Position numbers and translations under genes: made by a program | Notes under the pieces: model-generated | Told to the model about the DNA's origin: nothing | What the model saw: the letters and a program-made list of their open reading frames with translations, nothing else | The model's database searches: none | From: a virus | Length of the DNA stretch: 26,592 bases | Virus record (IMG/VR): IMGVR_UViG_3300046812_000526 | Location: 1-26,592 of that record | Strand: one strand, 5' to 3' | In this document: piece by piece, positions 2,574 to 11,557 of the stretch | Numbering within the stretch: position 1 is the stretch's first letter | Layout: every line of letters begins with the position of its first letter

Positions 2574-2752
2574 AGACGCCCCGAGCCAACTCCGGGAAAA
2601 TCGAACCGAACACGTCGCCCTCGCTTTCAAATAGGATACGCAACCATGTCGATCCTACCTTATGTAGCGGCACCCGACGCGCACGGTTGAGTTGTGTAGG
2701 TTGCAGAGGGAAGCGCGTCGCCGGTGCAGTCTGCGATGCGCTGTAATGCACG

Positions 2753-2774
2753 GCATCGGTCCCAAGTCCGATGC
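2753..2774. repeat. 7-bp hairpin just before the first gene of the small-gene cluster
   Basis: GCATCGG (2753-2759) and CCGATGC (2768-2774) pair around an 8-nt loop, ending four bases before the recurring TTACCCT motif. It could be a leader structure or operator of the gene at 2804. No T-run follows. Confidence 0.4.
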
Positions 2775-2777
2775 ACC

Positions 2778-2796
2778 TTACCCTGATCCTAGGAGA
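2778..2796 (+). promoter_or_regulatory. Recurring TTACCCT/AGGAGA element, copy 1
   Basis: TTACCCT (2778-2784), a 6-nt spacer and AGGAGA (2791-2796) precede ATG 2804. The element could be a phage promoter fused to the ribosome-binding site, or an RNA hairpin pairing CCT with the AGG of the Shine-Dalgarno. In this copy the pairing would be 3 bp around 6 nt. Confidence 0.65.
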
Positions 2797-2803
2797 TATC
2801 CAA

Positions 2804-3016
2804 ATGAAGAAAACCAACGCGGTCTACATCGGCATCGACAACATGGAAGAAGTCGAAGTCGTATTTACCCCGAAAACCCGTCGCGAAATTCAGCGTATCG
2901 CTAAAGCGAATCACGTTCCCGAAGTGGAGTTGCTGGCGCAGTACCTTGGACAGATCAGCCTTGCCGGTCTCGCTGGCGTCGCATTCGGTATGCGGTCTCG
3001 CAAGACGCGTCGCTAG
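2804..3016 (+). CDS. Hypothetical protein, 70 aa
   Basis: Starts MKKTNAVYIGIDN and ends in a basic stretch RSRKTRR. A segment rich in Gly, Ala and Leu (SLAGLAGVAFGM, about residues 52-63) precedes the basic end. That could be a short membrane-associating helix, but it is short for a true transmembrane segment. The start is fixed by AGGAGA at 2791-2796, with a 7-nt gap. It is the first gene of the small-gene cluster. I do not recognise a family. Confidence 0.75.
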   Translation: MKKTNAVYIGIDNMEEVEVVFTPKTRREIQRIAKANHVPEVELLAQYLGQISLAGLAGVAFGMRSRKTRR

Positions 3017-3020
3017 TTCA

Positions 3021-3248
3021 ATGAAGAAACCCAAGATCGTATCCGCCGTGCGCGACTGGCCGAGCAAGCGCGTCTTCACCGGCATCCATCATTACGCCGC
3101 AGCGCTCCGGGCATCGCGCACATTGCATGCCACGCTCGAAGCGCTGGTCGAGCGCGGGCTGGACGAGGGCTTCACGGTGAACGGCACCTACATCACGCGG
3201 TACGACGTGATGGCACAATATGGTATCGACGATTCTGGTGATCTGTAG
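3021..3248 (+). CDS. Hypothetical protein, 75 aa
   Basis: Begins MKKPKIVSAVRDWPSKR, four bases after the preceding stop. It is a mixed alpha/beta-looking basic-to-acidic protein ending GIDDSGDL. A longer in-frame start at 2946 lies inside the previous gene and is less likely. No Cys pairs, membrane segment or known motif. Translation is probably coupled to the upstream gene, since no strong ribosome-binding site is visible. Confidence 0.65.
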   Translation: MKKPKIVSAVRDWPSKRVFTGIHHYAAALRASRTLHATLEALVERGLDEGFTVNGTYITRYDVMAQYGIDDSGDL

Positions 3249-3256
3249 CAAGCCAC

Positions 3257-3273
3257 TTACCCTATCAAGGAGA
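3257..3273 (+). promoter_or_regulatory. Recurring TTACCCT/AGGAGA element, copy 2
   Basis: TTACCCT at 3257-3263, spacer ATCA, AGGAGA at 3268-3273, five bases before ATG 3279. CCT and AGG could pair around a four-base loop. The same 17-base core recurs exactly at 3721-3737. Confidence 0.7.
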
Positions 3274-3278
3274 CGACC

Positions 3279-3578
3279 ATGTCCAGCCCCCGACTATCTT
3301 CGGATGAAGTATCGCTGCTCGCTACGACGCAGGACGCGTATTCATACGATCGTTATGGACACGTGGAATGGCGCAAGTGCATTCAGCATCTCATCCGCGA
3401 CTGGGGTTTCTCCAAAGTCGAAGCTGAATCCATACTGCGAAGCAAGTGGATGCGTTTCGCTGCTGATCAGGGCAAAGGCGCTCGGCCCTCAGTCGGTGAT
3501 CTTCGCAAGTGGCTGAACGCTGAAGTCCGTCGCCTCGGCCTGACGCGATTCTGCGCGCACGTCCAAGCATTAGTTTGA
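3279..3578 (+). CDS. Small phage-type hypothetical protein, 99 aa
   Basis: Contains GHVEWRKCIQHLIRDWGFSK (residues 27-46) followed by EAESILRSKWMRFAAD. This helical W-x-x-C...EAExILRSKxMRxAAD pattern resembles small conserved phage proteins that are otherwise uncharacterised. The start follows copy 2 of the pre-gene motif. No membrane segment. Its biochemical role is unknown. Confidence 0.8.
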   Translation: MSSPRLSSDEVSLLATTQDAYSYDRYGHVEWRKCIQHLIRDWGFSKVEAESILRSKWMRFAADQGKGARPSVGDLRKWLNAEVRRLGLTRFCAHVQALV

Positions 3579-3589
3579 AAGGAGATTCT

Positions 3590-3712
3590 ATGACCACGCA
3601 ATCCCGCTCGGCCGCGTCGCTGCTCGGTTGGGGCATCGCGCTGTTTGTGCTGTACCAACTCGCCGTGCATCTGATTCCGGCGGCAATGCTGCTGAACGCG
3701 AAGTTCCAGTAG
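3590..3712 (+). CDS. 40-aa single-pass membrane peptide
   Basis: A short frame with a good ribosome-binding site (AAGGAG at 3579-3584, six bases before ATG 3590) encodes MTTQSRSAASLLGWGIALFV and a hydrophobic helix from about residue 10 to 34, ending NAKFQ. It lacks the TTACCCT element of its neighbours. A single-span peptide this size could be a small inner-membrane modulator or holin-like, but nothing specific shows which. Confidence 0.65.
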   Translation: MTTQSRSAASLLGWGIALFVLYQLAVHLIPAAMLLNAKFQ

Positions 3713-3720
3713 GTCCACCG

Positions 3721-3737
3721 TTACCCTATCAAGGAGA
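3721..3737 (+). promoter_or_regulatory. Recurring TTACCCT/AGGAGA element, copy 3
   Basis: TTACCCT (3721-3727), ATCA, AGGAGA (3732-3737), then four bases before ATG 3742. Identical over 17 bases to copy 2. Confidence 0.7.
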
Positions 3738-3741
3738 GATC

Positions 3742-4113
3742 ATGTCCGCATCGAAGCACCAGCCCATCGCCGCAGCATTCATGTTCGCATTCGAAGGCAA
3801 TCTCCAGCGCAAGGACGTCGATACGGTCGAAGAGATCGTCGGCGACTTGGAAGACCTCGGCAGTGTGCTCGAAGAAGATGAGACTTTGCGGTTTCGGGAT
3901 CTGCCACAAGTTATCCCCGAAGTGGTCCGCAAGCGGATGGTCGCACTGTCGCAGCAAAAAGTCACTGCACACAACGAACTATTCGACATGCTGTCGCAGC
4001 TCGATCGCGTCGCTGGCAAAATCTTTGACAAGAAGGATGCAGAAGCGACCGCGGCGCTCCCGCACTGCCCGACGTGCGGTCATCTCGTTCCCAAAGCAAA
4101 GCGAGGGCGCTGA
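3742..4113 (+). CDS. Hypothetical protein with C-terminal CPTCGH knuckle
   Basis: The 123-residue protein is acidic in the middle (residues about 27-50) and mainly helical. It ends in CPTCGHLVPKAKRGR, a single CxxC-G-H half zinc knuckle with a basic tail. One Cys pair plus His may bind metal alone or in a dimer. The start at 3742 is set by copy 3 of the pre-gene motif rather than the upstream ATG at 3628. Function unknown. Confidence 0.75.
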   Translation: MSASKHQPIAAAFMFAFEGNLQRKDVDTVEEIVGDLEDLGSVLEEDETLRFRDLPQVIPEVVRKRMVALSQQKVTAHNELFDMLSQLDRVAGKIFDKKDAEATAALPHCPTCGHLVPKAKRGR

Positions 4114-4115
4114 TC

Positions 4116-4427
4116 ATGGACGGATCGTTCCAATACGTCGAGGCACTCGGCGAATATCTGTTGCCAGTGCTCGACCCCGATGCGCATCTCGAAGCCGAAC
4201 GGGCAGAGCGGGCTCGGCACAATGCGCGGCTCATCAAGCAGGGCTTCACGTGGTTTCGCAAGTTCGATCCGACGCGCGGTGCAATCATCGCCGTGCATCG
4301 CGTCGATAAACGGCGCGGTCTGGTCGAGGCGCGTGGCGTGCGCAGCGACCGCCAGTTTACCGTCGCGCTGGCCGACTTGTACCCGTATCGGCCAGCCCCG
4401 ATCGGCAGGCCCTCCAAGGTCCGCTAG
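4116..4427 (+). CDS. Hypothetical protein, 103 aa
   Basis: Starts MDGSFQYVEALGEYLLPVLD two bases after the previous stop. An Arg/Glu-rich helix (about residues 25-45) is followed by a strand-rich part (GFTWFRKFDPTRGAI...) and a proline-rich end. The compact strand-rich part resembles an SH3-like or KOW-like barrel in pattern only. There is no strong ribosome-binding site, so coupling to the upstream gene is likely. Role unknown. Confidence 0.65.
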   Translation: MDGSFQYVEALGEYLLPVLDPDAHLEAERAERARHNARLIKQGFTWFRKFDPTRGAIIAVHRVDKRRGLVEARGVRSDRQFTVALADLYPYRPAPIGRPSKVR

Positions 4428-4439
4428 GACGTCCGCCCA

Positions 4440-4468
4440 GGACCGGTCGGTGTATCTGCCGCCGGTCC
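4440..4468. repeat. 7-bp GC hairpin in ftsK upstream region
   Basis: GGACCGG (4440-4446) pairs with CCGGTCC (4462-4468) around 15 nt. The right arm runs into GTCCCCGGGCA (4465-4475), a string also found at 1992-2002 and, with one base missing, on the opposite strand at 10407-10417. Confidence 0.5.
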
Positions 4469-4510
4469 CCGGGCAGGACCGCCTAGGACCTGCTAGACCG
4501 CTCCAATCGG

Positions 4511-4545
4511 GCCTGCCGCCAGTCCTACTATAGTAGGCGGCAGGC
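4511..4545. repeat. Compound palindrome upstream of ftsK-like gene
   Basis: GCCTGCCGCC (4511-4520) pairs exactly with GGCGGCAGGC (4536-4545). Overlapping it is a perfect 14-bp palindrome, CCTACTATAGTAGG (4524-4537). A short GGCA tandem run follows (about 4539-4556). The absence of a T-run argues against a simple intrinsic terminator; an operator or a structured leader is as likely. Confidence 0.65.
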
Positions 4546-4581
4546 AGGCAGGCAGCACATCCGCAGTTCACCGTTCCATCA

Positions 4582-4600
4582 TTACCCTACCATTAGGAGA
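4582..4600 (+). promoter_or_regulatory. Recurring TTACCCT/AGGAGA element, copy 4
   Basis: TTACCCT (4582-4588), ACCATT, AGGAGA (4595-4600), ATG 4608. Here the potential pairing extends to four pairs (CCTA with TAGG) around four bases. Confidence 0.7.
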
Positions 4601-4607
4601 CATCACC

Positions 4608-6221
4608 ATGCGTTCCTCATCGAAATCCGCCAAGCGCTCGCCCAAGTCCGTCAGCAAGAAGTCCGTCAAGCAGACGAATCTTCGCAAGACGATCGACTGC
4701 CCGGAATGCGGCGGAATGGGCAAGAAGCTGATCCGCAAGAACGGCGTCATCAAGTTGGTCCGTTGCACGAACTGTGTCGGTGGCCAGATCCAGCCCAAGG
4801 AGCACGTCATGAAGAAGATCGCCGAGAAAACCACGAAGAAGTCGAAGACGCATCGCTCTGGCAAAGCGAGCAAGATCGCCAAGCAACTCGCTGAAGACTT
4901 GGATGATGATGACGAGGAAGACGAAGAGGACGATGATGACGACGAGTTCTCCGGGCTCGGTCGGGCGGTCAGTCAGCCGACGATGTCCGCTGCTGACGTC
5001 AAGAAGTTGACGCGGGAACAGCGCCTCGCCAAGGAAACGATCGAGGAGCGCGCGGCGTTCTTCGGTTGCCCAGGCAAGGTGACCGCGGTCCGGCATGGTC
5101 CGATCATCACGTTGTACGAATTCTCGCCATCGAAGACGACGCGCATCAAGCGCCTGATCAATCTCCAGGAAGATCTGGCCTTGGCGCTCAGCGCAGACGC
5201 GGTGATGGTGCGTCGCATTCCAGGCAAGGAAGTCGTCGGCATCGAAATCTCGAACGAGGCAGGCGACCGCAAGAACGTCGGATTCCGCGCGTCGTTGGCG
5301 TCGGTCAAGGCGGCGAAGAAGCGCGGCATGTCACTGCCGATGAATCTGGGCACGGATCCGTTCGGTGAGCCGATCGTCGACGACTTGGCGACCATGCCGC
5401 ATCTCCTGATCGCCGGCTCGACCGGTTCGGGTAAGTCGGTATCGCTGAACTGCATCATCAGTTCGCTGCTCGCCGTCTGCTCGCCAGACGAACTGCAATT
5501 CTACATGATCGATCCGAAGGGCGTCGAGCTCACGCACTACAATGATATCCCGCACATGCTCGAGCCGATGGTCACGAGTCCACACTACGCCAAGCAGATC
5601 CTGGCCAATCTCATCCAGGAAATGCGGAAGCGATTGCAGACGCTGACGTACTCCGGCGTCCGCGATATCAAGGGACTGAATGAACTCTACAAAGCACAGG
5701 GCAAACCGCCGATGCCGCGTATCGTCTTGATCGTGGACGAGTTGGGCGACCTCATGCTGCAAGATCGTCGGGGCTTCACCGCCATGTTCGCCGAGATCGC
5801 GCAGATCGCCCGCGCGACCGGCATTCACATGATCGCCGCGACGCAGCGCCCATCGGTGGACGTGCTCAGTGGAAAAATCAAGGTGAACTTCCCCGGGCGG
5901 ATGGCGTTCAAAGTCACGTCGATGGCCGACAGCAAGACGATCATCCAGCGGAAAGGCGCCGAGGGGCTGCTCGGTTGCGGTGACATGTTGTACCTGAGCC
6001 CCTCGCGATCGTCGGTCATCCGAATCCACGCTCCGTGGGTTCCGCTCGCTGACGTCGTGGAGATCGCGACGCAGATTCGGCAGGCCGATGCCAAGCGCCG
6101 CGAAGAGGCGGCTCGTATCGCCACCGAGGCACGGTTGCGCGAAGTTCGCGAGACCATGCCGCGCGTCAAGATCGAGAGCGAGGAAAGCAAGCCGATCAAT
6201 CTCGACTGGCTCAGCAAGTGA
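4608..6221 (+). CDS. Soluble FtsK/SpoIIIE-type DNA translocase with N-terminal zinc ribbon
   Basis: This 537-residue ATPase has the core FtsK motor: an alpha-domain-like part (GPIITLYEFSPSKTTRIKRL), Walker A AGSTGSGKS at residues 269-277, Walker B around 370-380 (IVLIVDELGDLM) and the family's ATQRPSVDVL...GRMAFKV segment. Bacterial FtsK proteins carry four N-terminal membrane helices and a C-terminal gamma DNA-reading domain; neither is visible. Instead there is a basic N-terminus, a four-Cys zinc ribbon (C31, C34, C53, C56) and an acidic linker of about 17 residues near residues 95-113. FtsK-like motors pump double-stranded DNA. In a phage or plasmid-like element this could serve DNA packaging, partition or transfer; the exact role is inference. 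The start follows copy 4 of the recurring motif. Confidence 0.9.
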   Translation: MRSSSKSAKRSPKSVSKKSVKQTNLRKTIDCPECGGMGKKLIRKNGVIKLVRCTNCVGGQIQPKEHVMKKIAEKTTKKSKTHRSGKASKIAKQLAEDLDDDDEEDEEDDDDDEFSGLGRAVSQPTMSAADVKKLTREQRLAKETIEERAAFFGCPGKVTAVRHGPIITLYEFSPSKTTRIKRLINLQEDLALALSADAVMVRRIPGKEVVGIEISNEAGDRKNVGFRASLASVKAAKKRGMSLPMNLGTDPFGEPIVDDLATMPHLLIAGSTGSGKSVSLNCIISSLLAVCSPDELQFYMIDPKGVELTHYNDIPHMLEPMVTSPHYAKQILANLIQEMRKRLQTLTYSGVRDIKGLNELYKAQGKPPMPRIVLIVDELGDLMLQDRRGFTAMFAEIAQIARATGIHMIAATQRPSVDVLSGKIKVNFPGRMAFKVTSMADSKTIIQRKGAEGLLGCGDMLYLSPSRSSVIRIHAPWVPLADVVEIATQIRQADAKRREEAARIATEARLREVRETMPRVKIESEESKPINLDWLSK

Positions 6222-6634
6222 TTCCGCGATTCCTCGTCGTGCTGGATACCATGTGGGGAGCGCCCGGACGGGCTCCCCGCTGGTTCTGCATCAGCCCACA
6301 GAACCATAGCGGACGTCGGTTGTACGCGCTGACCGGAGCCCGCGTTGGACAGATCTGGGTCACGAATGCTTGCCCGCAGCAGACCGGGCATGCTGCGCAG
6401 CATGGCACGCCATCTCCCACGTGGCTTGCCGACAGCTTGAGCGGTCTGCCACGGACCTATCGTCGATTACCCTTGCTAGTGTGCGGCGCGGTTGCGCTCG
6501 GGGCGTATCGGAGCATTCAGGCGCAAGGGTACCGACACCGCGGTCCGGTCCTATACCTACTGCATCCTGCTGCGCGAACGTGGACAAAAGCCCGCCTCCG
6601 TGCAGTCGCTCGTCGTATCGCAACCTTACCCTGA
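6218..6634 (+). CDS. Uracil-DNA-glycosylase-superfamily-like protein
   Basis: A 138-residue frame starts with GTG at 6218, overlapping the ftsK-like stop (GTGA), and ends inside copy 5 of the recurring motif. The order of segments suggests the UDG fold as seen in small phage proteins: an N-terminal part with SPQNHSGRRLYALTG, a VTNACPQQ segment, a LPLLVCGAVALGAY strand-turn-helix, and YLLHPAARTWTKARL, which recalls the HPS loop that reads the flipped base. The usual catalytic GxDPG-type motif is not clear, so it may bind bases or DNA without cutting. A GGGGAGC/GCTCCCC hairpin lies inside the frame. Whether this frame is coding is moderately certain; its family is tentative. Confidence 0.5.
   Translation: MIPRFLVVLDTMWGAPGRAPRWFCISPQNHSGRRLYALTGARVGQIWVTNACPQQTGHAAQHGTPSPTWLADSLSGLPRTYRRLPLLVCGAVALGAYRSIQAQGYRHRGPVLYLLHPAARTWTKARLRAVARRIATLP
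6255..6278. repeat. 7-bp GC hairpin just after the ftsK-like gene
   Basis: GGGGAGC (6255-6261) and GCTCCCC (6272-6278) pair around 10 nt, 34 bases after the ftsK-like stop. With no T-run it is a poor intrinsic terminator. It may be an incidental coding palindrome. Confidence 0.4.
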
Positions 6635-6642
6635 TCAGGAGA
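6626..6642 (+). promoter_or_regulatory. Recurring TTACCCT/AGGAGA element, copy 5
   Basis: TTACCCT (6626-6632), GATC, AGGAGA (6637-6642), ATG 6648. CCTGATCAGG in this copy is a perfect palindrome. The upstream gene's TGA stop lies within the element. Confidence 0.7.
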
Positions 6643-6647
6643 TTCCC

Positions 6648-6857
6648 ATGCGAATTCAAACTGTCCATCCCGAGCGTCGCGCCCTGATGCTAGAGACGCA
6701 TCATCAAATGGAGTACTGCGCACGGCTCTACGAGAAACTCGGATTCAAATATATTATCGGTTGGCGCGATGTCCAAGGCTATGGGCTGAGCGTAACGAAA
6801 TTTGCCGAGTGGCAGAGCGCCGATGGTCGGGCGTACATCGATCTGTGGTGGCCGTGA
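6648..6857 (+). CDS. Hypothetical protein, 69 aa
   Basis: Starts MRIQTVHPERRALMLETHHQ. A central YEKLGFKY recalls the C-terminal signature of GNAT acetyltransferases, but the protein is far too short for that fold. It is aromatic-rich at the end (IDLWWP). Its start is set by copy 5 of the motif, and its TGA overlaps the next ATG. Not recognised. Confidence 0.7.
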   Translation: MRIQTVHPERRALMLETHHQMEYCARLYEKLGFKYIIGWRDVQGYGLSVTKFAEWQSADGRAYIDLWWP

Positions 6858-7159
6858 TGAAACCGATCATATTGAAAATTCATCTGCTGCGTCCCATTAT
6901 TCGAGGCGCGTGCGGTGTTCGAATCGAGCGCGGTTTGCGTACATCTCTCGCGCACGACAATGTGACATGCCAGAAGTGTAAACAGACCGTCTACTATAAG
7001 CTTACCCTGAGACAGGAGATTTCCCATGACACGAGACGTGAAGGCCATCAAGACACGGCGCGATGCCAGCGCAGCGCAGCGCGTACGGAGATTCCTCCTC
7101 GCGGCCGGATTATCCCCCGCCGAGGCATTCGCCGTGCGCCAGCAAGCCCGACTGGCTGA
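6857..7159 (+). CDS. Small zinc-ribbon-type protein with long overlap into next gene
   Basis: The first half contains ACG (Cys at about 19) and VTCQKCKQ, the two half-sites of a small phage-type zinc ribbon (CG...VTCxxC). After residue 50 the frame reads through copy 6 of the recurring motif and overlaps the gene at 7026 by 134 bases, adding an Arg/Pro-rich tail of about 45 residues. The natural product may be this 100-residue form, or a former stop near 7010 may have been lost. The ATG overlaps the previous stop (TGATG). A role in nucleic-acid binding is plausible. Confidence 0.6.
   Translation: MKPIILKIHLLRPIIRGACGVRIERGLRTSLAHDNVTCQKCKQTVYYKLTLRQEISHDTRREGHQDTARCQRSAARTEIPPRGRIIPRRGIRRAPASPTG
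7002..7019 (+). promoter_or_regulatory. Recurring TTACCCT/AGGAGA element, copy 6
   Basis: TTACCCT (7002-7008), GAGAC, AGGAGA (7014-7019), ATG 7026. Possible pairs CCTG/CAGG around three bases. It is embedded in the coding frame of the upstream zinc-ribbon gene. Confidence 0.7.
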
Positions 7160-7283
7160 ACGGCGGAGCGCCGAGCGTCAGCATCAACCCAAGTCGTATC
7201 AGTGGAATCCATACCCGAGTGCGAATGTGGGTACGGATCCCGATTCTCCGGTCCCTGAATTCCTCGGTGGATTGGTTTCGTGA
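7026..7283 (+). CDS. Hypothetical basic protein, 85 aa
   Basis: Begins MTRDVKAIKTRRDASAAQRV. A helical Arg/Ala-rich part, including LSPAEAFAVRQQARLAERRS, is followed by a Pro/Ser/Asp-rich tail ending FLGGLVS. The start follows copy 6 of the motif. Stop and next GTG overlap (GTGA). No known domain seen. Confidence 0.7.
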   Translation: MTRDVKAIKTRRDASAAQRVRRFLLAAGLSPAEAFAVRQQARLAERRSAERQHQPKSYQWNPYPSANVGTDPDSPVPEFLGGLVS

Positions 7284-7459
7284 TCGCGCTTCGACGCGAC
7301 GGGGTCGTCGTGGAAGTGGGCGACGATCTCGTCATGGACGATTTCGAAGATGCAGTTGTCACATGGAACAATGAATTCTCTGGCTGGGATGCGGACGGCC
7401 ATTTCTGGTCTGTGCGCGAACTACCAGACGTCACTGAATATCGACAGGAGGAATCATGA
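7280..7459 (+). CDS. Hypothetical acidic protein, 59 aa
   Basis: A GTG-started frame (GTGA overlap) encodes MIALRRDGVVVEVGDDLVMD and then an acidic, aromatic-rich part with FSGWDADGHFWSV. It ends in an ATGA overlap with the next gene. The overlaps at both ends support expression. No family recognised. Confidence 0.65.
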   Translation: MIALRRDGVVVEVGDDLVMDDFEDAVVTWNNEFSGWDADGHFWSVRELPDVTEYRQEES

Positions 7460-7605
7460 AGACGCCAGCCCTGCCCGAAACGACTTGGAAGAAAGAGCAT
7501 CTCCGTCCCTGTCCCGGCAAGTGCGGGCATCCGCACGTTGGGAAGCGCGGACCATGCACGAAGACCGGATGCGGATGTTACGCGACGGGAGACAAGAAGA
7601 AATGA
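7456..7605 (+). CDS. 49-aa Cys-rich mini-protein, probably metal-binding
   Basis: Five Cys and two His occur in the pattern PCPGKCGHPH, GPC and GCGC, followed by a Lys tail. AGGAGG at 7446-7451 gives a strong ribosome-binding site for ATG 7456. The short Cys spacing suggests one or two zinc sites. The neighbours on both sides overlap by ATGA. Function unknown. Confidence 0.65.
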   Translation: MKTPALPETTWKKEHLRPCPGKCGHPHVGKRGPCTKTGCGCYATGDKKK

Positions 7606-7733
7606 GAGTAGATATCCGCGTTGACCAATCGACATTGCATTTCTATCTGCGATGGTTAGCGATTACGTGGACGACAAAAGGTACATGGACGACGCAGCAA
7701 GTCTACGATGCGATCGCAGGACGTCCTAAATGA
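7602..7733 (+). CDS. Hypothetical 43-aa protein
   Basis: Starts MRVDIRVDQSTLHFYLRWLA with an ATGA overlap to the Cys-rich gene, and ends QVYDAIAGRPK. It has a short amphipathic helix rich in aromatic residues, not a clear membrane span. Not recognised. Confidence 0.55.
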   Translation: MRVDIRVDQSTLHFYLRWLAITWTTKGTWTTQQVYDAIAGRPK

Positions 7734-7753
7734 TCACGTTCCGCCATTTCCAC

Positions 7754-7769
7754 TACCCTATATAGGAGA
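7754..7769 (+). promoter_or_regulatory. Recurring TACCCT/AGGAGA element, copy 7
   Basis: CTACCCT is followed by ATAT and AGGAGA (7764-7769), five bases before ATG 7775. CCTATATAGG in this copy is a perfect palindrome. Confidence 0.65.
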
Positions 7770-7774
7770 CGCCG

Positions 7775-8419
7775 ATGGCCCTCCCACGGCGATGTAAATC
7801 GTGTCGATGCTACGTTGCGGACTGGTTAAAGAAATGTCCGCGCTGTGGCAAGTCGGTGCCTTCCAACACGATCGTCAAGCTGACGAAAGAAGAGAAGGTC
7901 GCAGCGCGTCTCGCTAAGGATGCAGACGTGCCGATGATCCACCAGAAGAACATGCAATGGGTTCCGTCTGCGTTGACGGTCCAGATCCACAAGCAGACCT
8001 TGCACGAGGTCGAGCGCAAATTGTCGGACGCGGACACGCCGCGACAACGGAATGCGTTGCGCAGCGAGATCCGGCAGATCAAGCGCGTCATCGGGACGAC
8101 CGCGGAGCCAGCGCATCGGTGGACCAGCGAAACGTTCCATGGGAAATATGCGAGCGTGCTCGTGTATATCAGCCCGAAGAATCGCCGATACGTGCTCGCC
8201 GGTGCTGATACGCCCGCCGACCTGATCATCAAGAATCGGCGGAGTGCTGGCGTACCGTTCTCGCGGCTCCAACTCTTCGACAAGAGCGCGCACGCCAAGT
8301 ACGTGAAGGAAGATAAGAAGGCGGCGACTGCGCACCAGACGCGCGTCAAGATCAAGAAGGCGAAGCGCCTTGCTCGACGAAAGCTAAAAGCAGCTACCCT
8401 ACCAGAGGAGACGACATGA
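7775..8419 (+). CDS. Zinc-ribbon basic protein, 214 aa
   Basis: The N-terminus has CKSC (residues 8-11) and CPRC (21-24), a four-Cys zinc ribbon. A long helical, Lys/Arg-rich region follows, with two mixed middle segments (KYASVLVYISPKNRRYVLAG) and a very basic C-terminus. It is likely a nucleic-acid-binding protein. The recurring motif (copy 8) sits inside its last codons, and its stop overlaps the next ATG. I do not know the family. Confidence 0.75.
   Translation: MALPRRCKSCRCYVADWLKKCPRCGKSVPSNTIVKLTKEEKVAARLAKDADVPMIHQKNMQWVPSALTVQIHKQTLHEVERKLSDADTPRQRNALRSEIRQIKRVIGTTAEPAHRWTSETFHGKYASVLVYISPKNRRYVLAGADTPADLIIKNRRSAGVPFSRLQLFDKSAHAKYVKEDKKAATAHQTRVKIKKAKRLARRKLKAATLPEETT
8395..8411 (+). 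promoter_or_regulatory. Recurring TACCCT/AGGAGA element, copy 8
   Basis: TACCCT (8395-8400), ACCAG, AGGAGA (8406-8411), ATG 8416. It is encoded within the C-terminal codons of the zinc-ribbon gene. Confidence 0.65.
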
Positions 8420-9447
8420 TCACCGCATTGCAGCGAGAACGCGAGCAGCAGAAGCGTATCAAGCAGCAACTGAAGGAGCAGGAGCGCCAGCGATTTGCGA
8501 CACCCGGAAAGGATTACGATTTGGAAAGCGTCTGGGTCGCGCATATCTGGGCTCCTGAGTCTGTGGATCCAACGATCGGCGAGTGGATCTTTGTCGGCTT
8601 CCGTCGTCGCCGGCGATACCGACGCAAGCCACAGACCATGAATCGGTTCTTCAGCAAGGTCCGGCGACAGCTCGGCATCGACAAGAAATCACCGACCATG
8701 CTCATGGATCTGAACGAGGCGACTCGACGGTTCAAACAATCGGACCAGTCCTGGCGCACGCGTCCGCCACAGTTCCAGCAGCGACGGAAGAAGATGGCGC
8801 AGCGCACGCCAGCCTTGTGGACGACGCACAAGTTCAAGCAGCGCGCACCAGTCAAGGCGATGAAATTGCACCGGAAGGAGACGCGATTCATTGCCATCGC
8901 ACGACACACGTGGGATCGTGCTCCGGGCTATCTCTACTGCGGACCGCTCGCGTCGACCACCCGATGGGAAGCCGTGCGGGAAGCCGAGAAAATCCACGGA
9001 CCGCTCTATGTGAATGGGCTTCTCGTGATTGCGACGAAGGATCTGTCGAAATCCTTGTGCCATGCCATGCATCGCGGCAAGAAGATCCGTGCTGGCGTGT
9101 CGCGTATCATCTGGCCGGAAGTACCGCCGACGTTCAGCACGATGTGGGAGAAGGCCCGACGTAAGTTTGCGATGTCGGATGACACCGATCTTGGGCTCAT
9201 GCTGCGCGCCTGGACGGAGTGGATTATCCAAGGTCGTCCGTGGTTGACCATCAGCTGGTTTCGGAAACAGTTCAAGAAACTCTTACCCTTGACAGGAGAC
9301 ACCGCGCCATGCCAATCAAATCGAAAGCACGCCGCAAAGATTCGCGCCGCGCGAATCGTCACAAGAAAATCCACACCGAAACACGGGAAGACGCGCAGAT
9401 CAAAGACAAACACCCGATCAAGATCGACCGGGCGAAGGGCCGCATAG
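8416..9447 (+). CDS. Hypothetical basic protein, 343 aa, overlaps next gene
   Basis: An N-terminal Gln/Arg/Glu-rich coiled-coil-like stretch (residues about 3-30) is followed by basic segments. A central mixed part begins FIAIARHTWDRAPGYLYCGP, and a helical region contains TWEKARR-like elements. After the LLPL at copy 9 of the motif the frame continues for 46 codons into the next gene, giving a Lys/Arg/Thr-rich tail. That overlap is 139 bases. Without the tail the protein would end near residue 295. No domain recognised. Confidence 0.7.
   Translation: MITALQREREQQKRIKQQLKEQERQRFATPGKDYDLESVWVAHIWAPESVDPTIGEWIFVGFRRRRRYRRKPQTMNRFFSKVRRQLGIDKKSPTMLMDLNEATRRFKQSDQSWRTRPPQFQQRRKKMAQRTPALWTTHKFKQRAPVKAMKLHRKETRFIAIARHTWDRAPGYLYCGPLASTTRWEAVREAEKIHGPLYVNGLLVIATKDLSKSLCHAMHRGKKIRAGVSRIIWPEVPPTFSTMWEKARRKFAMSDDTDLGLMLRAWTEWIIQGRPWLTISWFRKQFKKLLPLTGDTAPCQSNRKHAAKIRAARIVTRKSTPKHGKTRRSKTNTRSRSTGRRAA
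9283..9299 (+). promoter_or_regulatory. Recurring TTACCCT/AGGAGA element, copy 9
   Basis: TTACCCT (9283-9289), TGAC, AGGAGA (9294-9299), ATG 9309. It is embedded in the frame of the 8416 gene, the third case of the element lying inside upstream coding sequence. Confidence 0.65.
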
Positions 9448-10346
9448 CAGCGAAGATCCGGCAGAAGATGCGCCGGATGCCAAAGCTCCCTACGAATCCG
9501 TATGTTGCGCTGATGATGCCACTCGTCATCGTGCCGGATGATCCAGAAGCGAAGGTCGTCATCGCTGATGCCGGCTCAATCGTCTGCCTGCTCGATCAAC
9601 AAACATTGTATCGCGAGCGGATGAGCCCGATCACTCGCCGCGGCGATGAACTCTATGTGCGGTTCGGGCGCGCGGATAAGCCGCAATATGGATGGCTAAC
9701 GAATCGACTGCCTCCATCGGTAATGAAGCCGACGCAGGGACCGACGTTCCTCGTCCAAAGCAAAGACGAAAGTCTGTTGCATGTGTGGGACGGACTGCGC
9801 TTGAAGATTGCTCGGACACGGAAAGGCCATCCGAACAGTTGGGCCATCTCATGGCTCGCACTGAACGGCGAAAAGTATCCACGTGAACTCAGGGAGGTGA
9901 CGCGATTCTTTGGCGGGACCCCGATCAAGAACGAACCGTTCGACACACGATGTATCCGATTGTTTTCACTCATCCTCCACACGGAGATCGACATGGCAAG
10001 CGCAAAGGCCTCGGCCAAGAAGTCAGCCAAGAAAGGGAAGAAGATCGTTGCCGAGAAGCCGACCAAGAAAGGGAAGAAGACTGGCAAGGTTGCGCCAGCG
10101 AAAGCGAAAGGCGAATTCAGTTCCTCGTCACGGGCCTTTGACAACCATATCATCCGCCGGCTCGTCAAGGAAAATCCGCGCCGCGCTGGATCCGAGAAGG
10201 CGAAGATCTGGGATCGCATCCGCAAGGGAATGACCGTCAAGGAATTCTGTGGGAAAGGCGGAACGCGCGGAGCCGTGCGCCGATTCATCGAGAACGGGTG
10301 GATCAAGTTGCTTTCGCCCAAGTCCGGCGCGACGGCCGACGAATAG
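9309..10346 (+). CDS. Basic DNA-binding-like protein, possibly two proteins from one frame
   Basis: The frame encodes 345 residues. The first 228 are a Lys/Arg-rich N-terminus followed by a mixed alpha/beta region with conserved-looking Trp, Gly and Pro. After an internal ATG at 9993, preceded by CGGAG, there is a histone H1-like Lys/Ala-rich stretch (about residues 229-270). A folded segment then holds ENPRRAGSEKAKIWDRIRKG followed by MTVKEF. It resembles the NPKR-x-G-S...GMTV domain of small phage DNA-binding proteins. The internal start could yield a separate 117-residue basic protein. The stop is followed by a structured GC-rich region. Confidence 0.7.
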   Translation: MPIKSKARRKDSRRANRHKKIHTETREDAQIKDKHPIKIDRAKGRIAAKIRQKMRRMPKLPTNPYVALMMPLVIVPDDPEAKVVIADAGSIVCLLDQQTLYRERMSPITRRGDELYVRFGRADKPQYGWLTNRLPPSVMKPTQGPTFLVQSKDESLLHVWDGLRLKIARTRKGHPNSWAISWLALNGEKYPRELREVTRFFGGTPIKNEPFDTRCIRLFSLILHTEIDMASAKASAKKSAKKGKKIVAEKPTKKGKKTGKVAPAKAKGEFSSSSRAFDNHIIRRLVKENPRRAGSEKAKIWDRIRKGMTVKEFCGKGGTRGAVRRFIENGWIKLLSPKSGATADE

Positions 10347-10349
10347 GAC

Positions 10350-10376
10350 CGGGCCTCGTCTGCCGTAGCAGGCCCG
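10350..10376. repeat. 7-bp hairpin after the basic protein gene
   Basis: CGGGCCT (10350-10356) pairs with AGGCCCG (10370-10376), loop 13. It starts within four bases of the stop. AGGACCGG and TCTGCCG here also occur in the same order at 4439-4461, suggesting related elements. Confidence 0.5.
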
Positions 10377-10386
10377 TAGGCACTAG

Positions 10387-10424
10387 ATCGGGGCTCGGGG
10401 CAGGGGTTGCCCGGGACCCCCGAT
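10387..10424 (+). repeat. G-quadruplex pattern within a nested hairpin
   Basis: G-runs at 10390-10393, 10397-10400, 10403-10406 and 10413-10415 with short loops fit the G3+N1-7 quadruplex rule. ATCGGGG (10387-10393) can instead pair with CCCCGAT (10418-10424), and GGGCA (10398-10402) with TGCCC (10408-10412). The two folds compete. Confidence 0.6.
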
Positions 10425-10486
10425 TTAGGCCCTCTGGGGACCGTTTTAAGCCATTTTCCCGTCCTAGGGCTGGTTTGCCTACCTTT

Positions 10487-10542
10487 GGACGGTTTGGATG
10501 GCCTAGGGGAGTCCCCAGGACCGATTGCAGGACGGTTTGGAT
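10487..10542. repeat. 13-base direct repeat flanking a hairpin
   Basis: GGACGGTTTGGAT occurs exactly at 10487-10499 and 10530-10542. Between the copies is CCTAGGGG-AGT-CCCCAGG (10502-10519), which folds with a GGGG/CCCC stem. Confidence 0.6.
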
Positions 10543-10589
10543 CCATGCCAGCTACCGCAGATGTTACCTTCGATCTGGAGATACCTTAT

Positions 10590-10904
10590 ATGTCACCGCT
10601 CGCTGCCCTACAGAAATGGCTAGTACAAACGCGTCGCGCGTCCGGCCATGACGACTACTTACGACGCGTCGAAACGCTGATGGAAAATGTCCGTCGCGCG
10701 GATGGTCGTGCTTTGCGCGGTCTGATGGTCGCGGACGATCTCTGTCTTACGCGACGTCGTGTGTTCTACCGATTGCTCGGAACGCGCGCAACTGAACTCA
10801 CGTTGGAGGAAGTCGCCGCGCAGTATGTCCTTGCGGATATGCAAGCGCGATACAAGATCGCAATGGATGCGTGGAAGTCGCGCAATCGCCGGATCGCCTC
10901 ATGA
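10590..10904 (+). CDS. Hypothetical helical protein, 104 aa
   Basis: Starts MSPLAALQKWLVQTRRASGH, after a degenerate version of the pre-gene motif (TTACCTT at 10564 and TGGAGA at 10576). It is mostly helical with many Arg and ends KIAMDAWKSRNRRIAS. An ATG at 10545 is an alternative start. The stop overlaps the ATG of the next gene. Not recognised. Confidence 0.65.
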   Translation: MSPLAALQKWLVQTRRASGHDDYLRRVETLMENVRRADGRALRGLMVADDLCLTRRRVFYRLLGTRATELTLEEVAAQYVLADMQARYKIAMDAWKSRNRRIAS

Positions 10905-11083
10905 TCGAGCATTACGATATCCGTATCGAATACGGAAAGGACGCGCATGAAGATGTGGTAATTCCGGCTACGAATCTGGCACAAGCACGGATCGCGGCCG
11001 AGATCCGGGTCGAAGCAATGACCGGTGAACAGCATCAGTACGACTGGCGCGGACAGGTCGTATTCGTGGATCATTCACCATGA
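10901..11083 (+). CDS. Hypothetical acidic protein, 60 aa
   Basis: Begins MIEHYDIRIEYGKDAHEDVV; mixed strands and one helix (ARIAAEIRVEAMTG). It has ATGA overlaps at both ends, so it belongs to a coupled operon. No family recognised. Confidence 0.65.
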   Translation: MIEHYDIRIEYGKDAHEDVVIPATNLAQARIAAEIRVEAMTGEQHQYDWRGQVVFVDHSP

Positions 11084-11226
11084 AGTCGCGGAAACGTATC
11101 CATCCGCGGCGCAAGAATGGGCTATTCAAGAAAGATGCTCCATTCTGGCGTGGCGAGCGCGCAGAAGATATCGTGAAGGCGCGTGTCGCCGGATACAAGA
11201 AAAAGAAGTCACGTAAGAAGACCTAA
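11080..11226 (+). CDS. Very basic 48-aa peptide
   Basis: The frame starts MKSRKRIHPRRKNGLFKKDA and ends KKKKSRKKT. The strong positive charge suggests DNA or RNA binding. The start overlaps the previous stop. It ends one base before copy 10 of the recurring motif. Confidence 0.6.
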   Translation: MKSRKRIHPRRKNGLFKKDAPFWRGERAEDIVKARVAGYKKKKSRKKT

Positions 11227-11244
11227 TACCCTACTACAAGGAGA
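11227..11244 (+). promoter_or_regulatory. Recurring TACCCT/AGGAGA element, copy 10
   Basis: TACCCT (11227-11232), ACTACA, AGGAGA (11239-11244), ATG 11249. This is the last copy; later genes in the window lack it. Confidence 0.65.
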
Positions 11245-11248
11245 TCGT

Positions 11249-11557
11249 ATGAAAAAGATTTTGCTGTGCCTTGGATTGATGGCGTGCTCCAAGACACTGG
11301 TCATCGAATCAAACACGACTTGGCGTGCGGCCATCGGTACATCCACGGTGGATGTGGCGACTGCGCGATCTGTGCAAGGATCCGGCAACCGTACCATCGC
11401 TGTTGATGCACAGACGGTCTGTTGGACCGTGCAGAAGACGACGCAATCTGGCGTCGTGCGCGCGTATCTGTCCTCGCACTCGATCATCGGCATCGACACA
11501 CAATCTGATGCGTCCACGACCGCAGATTTCGGTCTTGTCGCAGGATGCGTGCAATGA
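11249..11557 (+). CDS. Putative lipoprotein, 102 aa
   Basis: The N-terminus MKKILLCLGLMACSKTLVIE has a basic start, a short hydrophobic core and an LMAC lipobox with the modified Cys near residue 14. The mature part is Thr/Ser-rich and contains two more Cys (CWTVQKTTQ and GCVQ at the end), possibly a disulfide. It is predicted to be exported and lipidated in the periplasm of a diderm host. Such phage lipoproteins can take part in lysis or superinfection exclusion, but no match shows which. It starts after copy 10 of the motif. Confidence 0.75.
   Translation: MKKILLCLGLMACSKTLVIESNTTWRAAIGTSTVDVATARSVQGSGNRTIAVDAQTVCWTVQKTTQSGVVRAYLSSHSIIGIDTQSDASTTADFGLVAGCVQ

Follow-up and report, generated by a model that had tools for sequence, protein, structure and literature searches.

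Several systems are known in which a short sequence is repeated directly before the start codons of many genes. The closest to the element described here is the Start-Associated Sequence (SAS) of cluster K mycobacteriophages, a 13-bp sequence, GGGATAGGAGCCC, found at gene starts (PMC3203893, PMC11373665, PMC12699233), the role of which is still termed undefined in later papers (PMC11373665, PMC12699233). As far as we could find in the literature, SAS have been described only for this cluster. Their conservation extends to either side of AGGAG, and they lie mainly behind intergenic gaps of more than 50 bp and are accompanied upstream, at about half of the copies, by ESAS, a 17-bp imperfect inverted repeat. 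Another parallel is provided by RegA and RegB of phage T4, phage factors whose targets are the initiation regions of many different early mRNAs (PMC3014915). The TAACTGA repeats of Beggiatoaceae likewise stand immediately ahead of start codons, and binding of a post-transcriptional regulator has been proposed for them (PMC4679880).

Here we describe an element of comparable placement in a window of 26.6 kb, the whole stretch of DNA analysed, which represents part of the genome of an uncultured phage (IMG/VR record G000). The right part of the window encodes an SNF2-like helicase, an exonuclease, a Sak4-like annealing protein, a primase-helicase and DNA polymerase A, and the left part is a small-gene cluster that includes an FtsK/SpoIIIE-like gene and harbours the element. 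No significant domain was returned by Pfam for the cluster proteins. The FtsK-like proteins of the window and of four related phages (G001, G002, G003 and G010) share a zinc-finger-like N-terminus with a DnaJ-type CxxCxGxG pattern, which is also seen in a small separate cluster protein of G010 (35234-35542).

The window holds ten copies, all on the plus strand and all exactly where a preliminary description had placed them, each consisting of TACCCT, a spacer of four (five copies), five (two copies) or six bases (three copies), AGGAGA, and a further 4-9 bases to an ATG. They are found at 2778..2796 (TTACCCT-GATCCT-AGGAGA; ATG at 2804, 70-aa ORF), 3257..3273 (TTACCCT-ATCA-AGGAGA; ATG at 3279, 99-aa ORF), 3721..3737 (TTACCCT-ATCA-AGGAGA; ATG at 3742, 123-aa ORF, the G010 orthologue of which also has the element), 4582..4600 (TTACCCT-ACCATT-AGGAGA; ATG at 4608, the FtsK/SpoIIIE-like gene of 537 aa), 6626..6642 (TTACCCT-GATC-AGGAGA; ATG at 6648, 69-aa ORF, again with the element before its G010 orthologue), 7002..7019 (TTACCCT-GAGAC-AGGAGA; ATG at 7026, 85-aa ORF) and 7754..7769 (TACCCT-ATAT-AGGAGA; ATG at 7775, ORF of 214 aa whose N-terminus shows a CxxC...CxxC pattern). 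The copies at 8395..8411 (TACCCT-ACCAG-AGGAGA; ATG at 8416, 343-aa ORF) and 9283..9299 (TTACCCT-TGAC-AGGAGA; ATG at 9309, 345-aa ORF) both lie within the 3' end of a preceding ORF, the former before a stop at 8419 and the latter inside ORF 8416-9447. The tenth, at 11227..11244 (TACCCT-ACTACA-AGGAGA; ATG at 11249), precedes a predicted lipoprotein of 102 aa and begins directly behind the stop codon of a 48-aa basic ORF (11080-11226). The matching place is occupied by an element in several relatives, though the next gene differs.

A degenerate eleventh copy had also been proposed at 10564..10581 on the plus strand (TTACCTT-CGATC-TGGAGA, before TACCTTATATG and an ATG at 10590). The sequence is indeed present, but its orthologues lack the element and most have TACCTTAT before the start codon, so the site is doubtful and at best a decayed copy. 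TACCTTATATG itself is a second conserved short motif, situated at the start codon of a 104-aa gene (10582-10592 in the window) and of its orthologues in G001, G010 and G014, and present also in leaders of G003, G007 and G008.

Chance similarity of ribosome-binding sites does not account for these copies. The pattern TACCCT-N3-7-AGGAG occurs ten times on the plus strand of the window and never on the minus strand, compared with a mean of 0.007 and a maximum of 1 in 300 dinucleotide shuffles, none of which contained the full pattern through ATG. TACCCT alone is found 12 times on the plus strand against 1.0 expected, with 10 of the 12 belonging to the element. At the same time, of the 25 ORFs of 40 aa or more that are led by AGGAG, only 10 carry it, and the element is thus a property of some genes rather than of every ribosome-binding site of the phage; even within the cluster, a plain Shine-Dalgarno sequence precedes the ORFs at 3590 and 7456. 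Its confinement in the window to the small-gene cluster and the lipoprotein gene, as first described, is correct, and relatives show a like restriction to the cluster.

DNA polymerase and FtsK searches gave relatives 67-75% identical to the window phage in polA, and others came from an exact search for TACCCTACTATAGGAG and a degenerate form of it. Eight records (G001, G002, G003, G006, G007, G008, G010 and G014) contributed 31 further copies, the copy at the end of G006 being a duplicate of that at the end of G001. These closer relatives share the consensus [AC]NC[CT]TACCCTANTAYAGGAG(a), i.e. [AC]NC[CT]-TACCCT-ANTAY-AGGAG, with a 5-nt spacer throughout. A more distant phage (G022, 51% in polA) has two copies with spacers of 3 and 6 nt, and four others (43-49% in polA, with the cluster covered in part) lack a clear copy before any start codon. 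Overall, about 42 distinct copies stand before about 29 mutually dissimilar protein families, which indicates that the element does not travel with one gene. All are in sense orientation and tied to a Shine-Dalgarno sequence and a start codon (37 ATG, 4 GTG and 1 TTG by automatic choice), with 5-12 nt between AGGAG and the start codon.

The element is both retained and exchanged among these phages. It precedes the FtsK-like gene in five of five phages, the flanks of which have otherwise diverged, and in G003 and G008 the leader DNA is almost identical up to the element while the first genes after it differ. Gains and losses among orthologues are also evident: the window ORF at 7456 lacks an element that three relatives have, and the ORF at 9309 has one that its relatives lack. 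Conservation in relatives had been named beforehand as a test, and with this result we regard it as near certain that the element is real and conserved. An exact IMG/VR scan for TTACCCT-N4-6-AGGAGA-N3-10-ATG gave only single-match contigs, as by chance, and an FtsK-based hunt for more relatives gave no new cluster with the element. Lone matches in two AT-rich records (G009 and G011, with one TACCCTACTATAGGAG each) and to the degenerate form (L176, L177, L179, L180 and L181), most with no start codon behind, were taken as chance.

The gene content of two relatives hints at synthesis of DNA with hypermodified thymine in these phages: G003 encodes a protein with a 5-hmdU DNA kinase helical domain, and both G003 and G010 encode proteins resembling thymidylate synthase (L161:6357-7223 and L161:1569-2855 in G003, L173:13756-14835 in G010). 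In addition, a partly conserved region of 500-900 nt with few convincing ORFs lies directly 5' of the cluster, at about 1972-2700 in the window and at matching places in G003, G006, G007, G008 and G010. It contains pieces common to the phages (CGTAAGTGCTT...ACTTA and TTGACAAATA, as well as GTGAAACGGGAATGC, which is not obvious in the window), and may represent a non-coding RNA with structure or a leader.

In the window, the only Rfam match in this pre-cluster region is a type-P5 twister self-cleaving ribozyme (RF02684) at 2702..2771 on the plus strand, scoring 50.6 bits against a gathering score of 37.6. Twisters are established to cleave at U-A (PMC5408937), on which basis the cut is predicted between U2744 and A2745, 34 nt before TACCCT. 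Four more type-P5 twisters were identified in relatives, at 38898-38964 and 38465-38524 in G010, 1034-1089 in G007 and 363-425 in G006. All five exceed the Rfam gathering score and are marked as members of the class by conserved UAAUGC and GGUCCCAAGUCC, and their P4-side hairpin shows compensatory changes; the G006 ribozyme has GGTCCACAGTCC, in which conserved loop bases are changed, and may be impaired. Each sits just 5' of an element-bearing cistron, with the element, which is itself distinct from the ribozyme, 31-35 nt after the predicted cut. Since a ribozyme acts only in a transcript, these five copies should be internal to RNA started upstream, and thus probably lie inside transcripts. 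New matches from a scan for the combined twister-plus-TACCCT pattern (L261-L264) had no element behind and were set aside as chance. Independently of the ribozymes, many copies begin 0-13 nt behind the preceding stop codon, several of them exactly 2 nt behind it.

The conservation of the element, its position and orientation, its close packing behind upstream genes and its proximity to ribozymes can all be read directly from the DNA. From these features together, we infer with moderate confidence that the element is a bipartite translation-initiation element, acting at the level of mRNA and read by a factor in trans. One half would be (C)[C/T]TACCCT and the other the Shine-Dalgarno sequence AGGAG(A). 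The linker between them ranges from 3 to 6 nt in the window phage and the distant phage, and is fixed and partly conserved as ANTAY in the closer relatives. The Shine-Dalgarno half would serve the usual recruitment of ribosomes, and TACCCT, just 5' of it in the mRNA, would be read by the trans-acting factor, conceivably an RNA-binding protein of the phage or a factor associated with the ribosome. Such a factor would either raise or block initiation jointly on the marked cistrons, and the element would in this way mark cistrons of one tightly packed cluster as a regulon. In five cases, the predicted twister cut 31-35 nt upstream would place the element behind a defined 5' leader that contains a stable hairpin. 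The range of spacers seen in the window phage and G022 would be more easily accommodated by a flexible RNA than by a protein bound to DNA, with the conserved ANTAY of the relatives a point against this, as it is not required by a purely flexible linker. The gains and losses of the element among orthologues also weigh against the model. A more specific version of the model, which we put forward as possible rather than probable, is a post-transcriptional regulon in which a phage-encoded factor reads TACCCT by the Shine-Dalgarno sequence of many cistrons on one long mRNA, twisters cut just upstream of chosen cistrons, and both together set translation.

The very basic 48-aa peptide encoded at 11080-11226 was considered as a candidate reader of the element. 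Among the small basic peptides of the cluster it is the best conserved, with identities of 69-83% in the closer relatives and 55% in G022. It is also found in two more distant phages, and it matches nothing in Pfam and nothing significantly in the PDB. It was rejected in this role, as it also occurs in phages without the element.

A promoter reading is unlikely. According to this explanation, TACCCT would be a -10-like box, as offered in the preliminary description, or TACCCTACTATAGGAG of the relatives would be the promoter of a phage polymerase, and transcripts would begin at the ribosome-binding site. TACCCT does conform to TAnnnT, and ACTATAGG of the relatives resembles the core of a T7-type promoter. 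However, no -35 block is shared, as had been recognised from the start: no -35 hexamer rises above control at 15-19 nt (TTGACA with five of six matches at this distance was found at 0 of 41 copies), and upstream sequence in the relatives is near random beyond -4, with no strongly conserved base. Moreover, the distance from TACCCT to AGGAG varies between 3 and 6 nt, copies are packed against stop codons, five copies lie downstream of ribozymes, and a start at AGGAG would give a very short leader, often with a truncated Shine-Dalgarno sequence. No T7 or T3 promoter core was seen at any copy with up to four mismatches, and a sigma-70 scan of the cluster detected promoter-like sites no more often than in shuffles. 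Searches for the corresponding enzymes were likewise negative: single-subunit RNA polymerase (PF00940) is absent from 11 records, which are possibly incomplete (T7 positive control, 1e-110), and no sigma-70 region 2 (Sigma70_r2) was found in these possibly incomplete records with a working control, while the large ORFs scanned in G010 encode structural, replication or glycosyltransferase-like proteins or gave no telling match. AGGAGA is also the -35 sequence of SPO1 middle promoters, a reading that was discarded as no conserved box follows downstream.

We consider it rather improbable that the element is a hairpin sequestering the Shine-Dalgarno sequence by pairing of CCT with AGG, in the manner of a small RNA switch or thermometer. 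Three to four pairs are possible in all copies (mean MFE -2.05 kcal/mol), and the Shine-Dalgarno sequence of element genes is predicted to be more paired than that of other AGGAG-led ORFs (unpaired probability 0.30 vs 0.46). The value is nevertheless almost the same with TACCCT permuted (0.301 real vs 0.286 permuted), so that composition explains the higher pairing and TACCCT permutation does not open the Shine-Dalgarno sequence. The apparent covariation of the spacer ends, suggested earlier from extended pairing in some copies, did not hold up either: among the 11 variable-spacer copies (ten from the window and one distant), a closing pair is possible in 6, compared with 5.1 in shuffles (P=0.34), and in the relatives, where the first spacer base is A throughout and the last T or C, 22 of 31 are pairable against a shuffled value of 22.0. 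The CCT/AGG core is invariant, and covariation is therefore no test of core pairing. The pairing explanation further leaves TTA and the flanking C conserved with no pairing partner.

A processing site, at which a phage or host endoribonuclease would cut at GGAG and shut off these genes in the fashion of T4 RegB, is very unlikely. GGAG in the Shine-Dalgarno sequence of a set of genes is the RegB target in T4 (PMC3014915), and the extra conserved bases could provide specificity. The RegB consensus, however, runs 3' of GGAG in an A-rich context (PMC3014915), whereas conservation here is on the 5' side. RegA sites differ as well, being A+U-rich, poorly conserved and overlapping or adjoining the AUG (PMC3014915), whereas the conserved site here is upstream of AUG. 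No RegA or RegB homologue was found among the proteins scanned, a subset of the ORFs. A CsrA site was also rejected: its consensus has A two bases before GGA, where the relatives have T or C. Finally, a phage repressor might use the element as an operator or a transcription-stopping site on DNA, comparable to the stoperators of cluster A mycobacteriophages. The element is indeed short, asymmetric, in a single orientation and in many copies near gene starts, but this is the least probable reading, given that the element is locked to a Shine-Dalgarno sequence and start codon, has variable internal spacing and, in the related phages, occurs in full only at ORF starts, whichever orientation is considered.

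For the bipartite mRNA element that we favour, SAS remain the nearest counterpart. Both are short asymmetric repeats that include AGGAG, lie a few nucleotides before start codons in a single orientation and in many copies, precede non-structural genes of families that differ between phages, and are conserved beyond the Shine-Dalgarno sequence. The element differs in that its extra block, TACCCT, is on the 5' side only, its linker can vary in length, it is often packed against upstream genes, and some copies stand behind a twister ribozyme. In ten records, GGGATAGGAGCCC with up to two mismatches gave two stray matches (in G006 and G007) and none at a copy of the element; as this definition fails and ESAS is absent here, the element does not belong to the SAS. 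By analogy, it may work like the SAS of cluster K with a different sequence. The Beggiatoaceae repeats differ in being tandem heptamers, mostly in place of a Shine-Dalgarno sequence, on bacterial chromosomes (PMC4679880).

From the standpoint of phage biology, a SAS-like design in a different sequence appears in a second, unrelated group of phages. A linker that is loose in one member and fixed in others points to TACCCT and AGGAG as the essential parts and, to judge from the ribozymes, no fewer than five copies appear to be read at the RNA level. With this, the question of what SAS are for becomes directly testable with small reporters.
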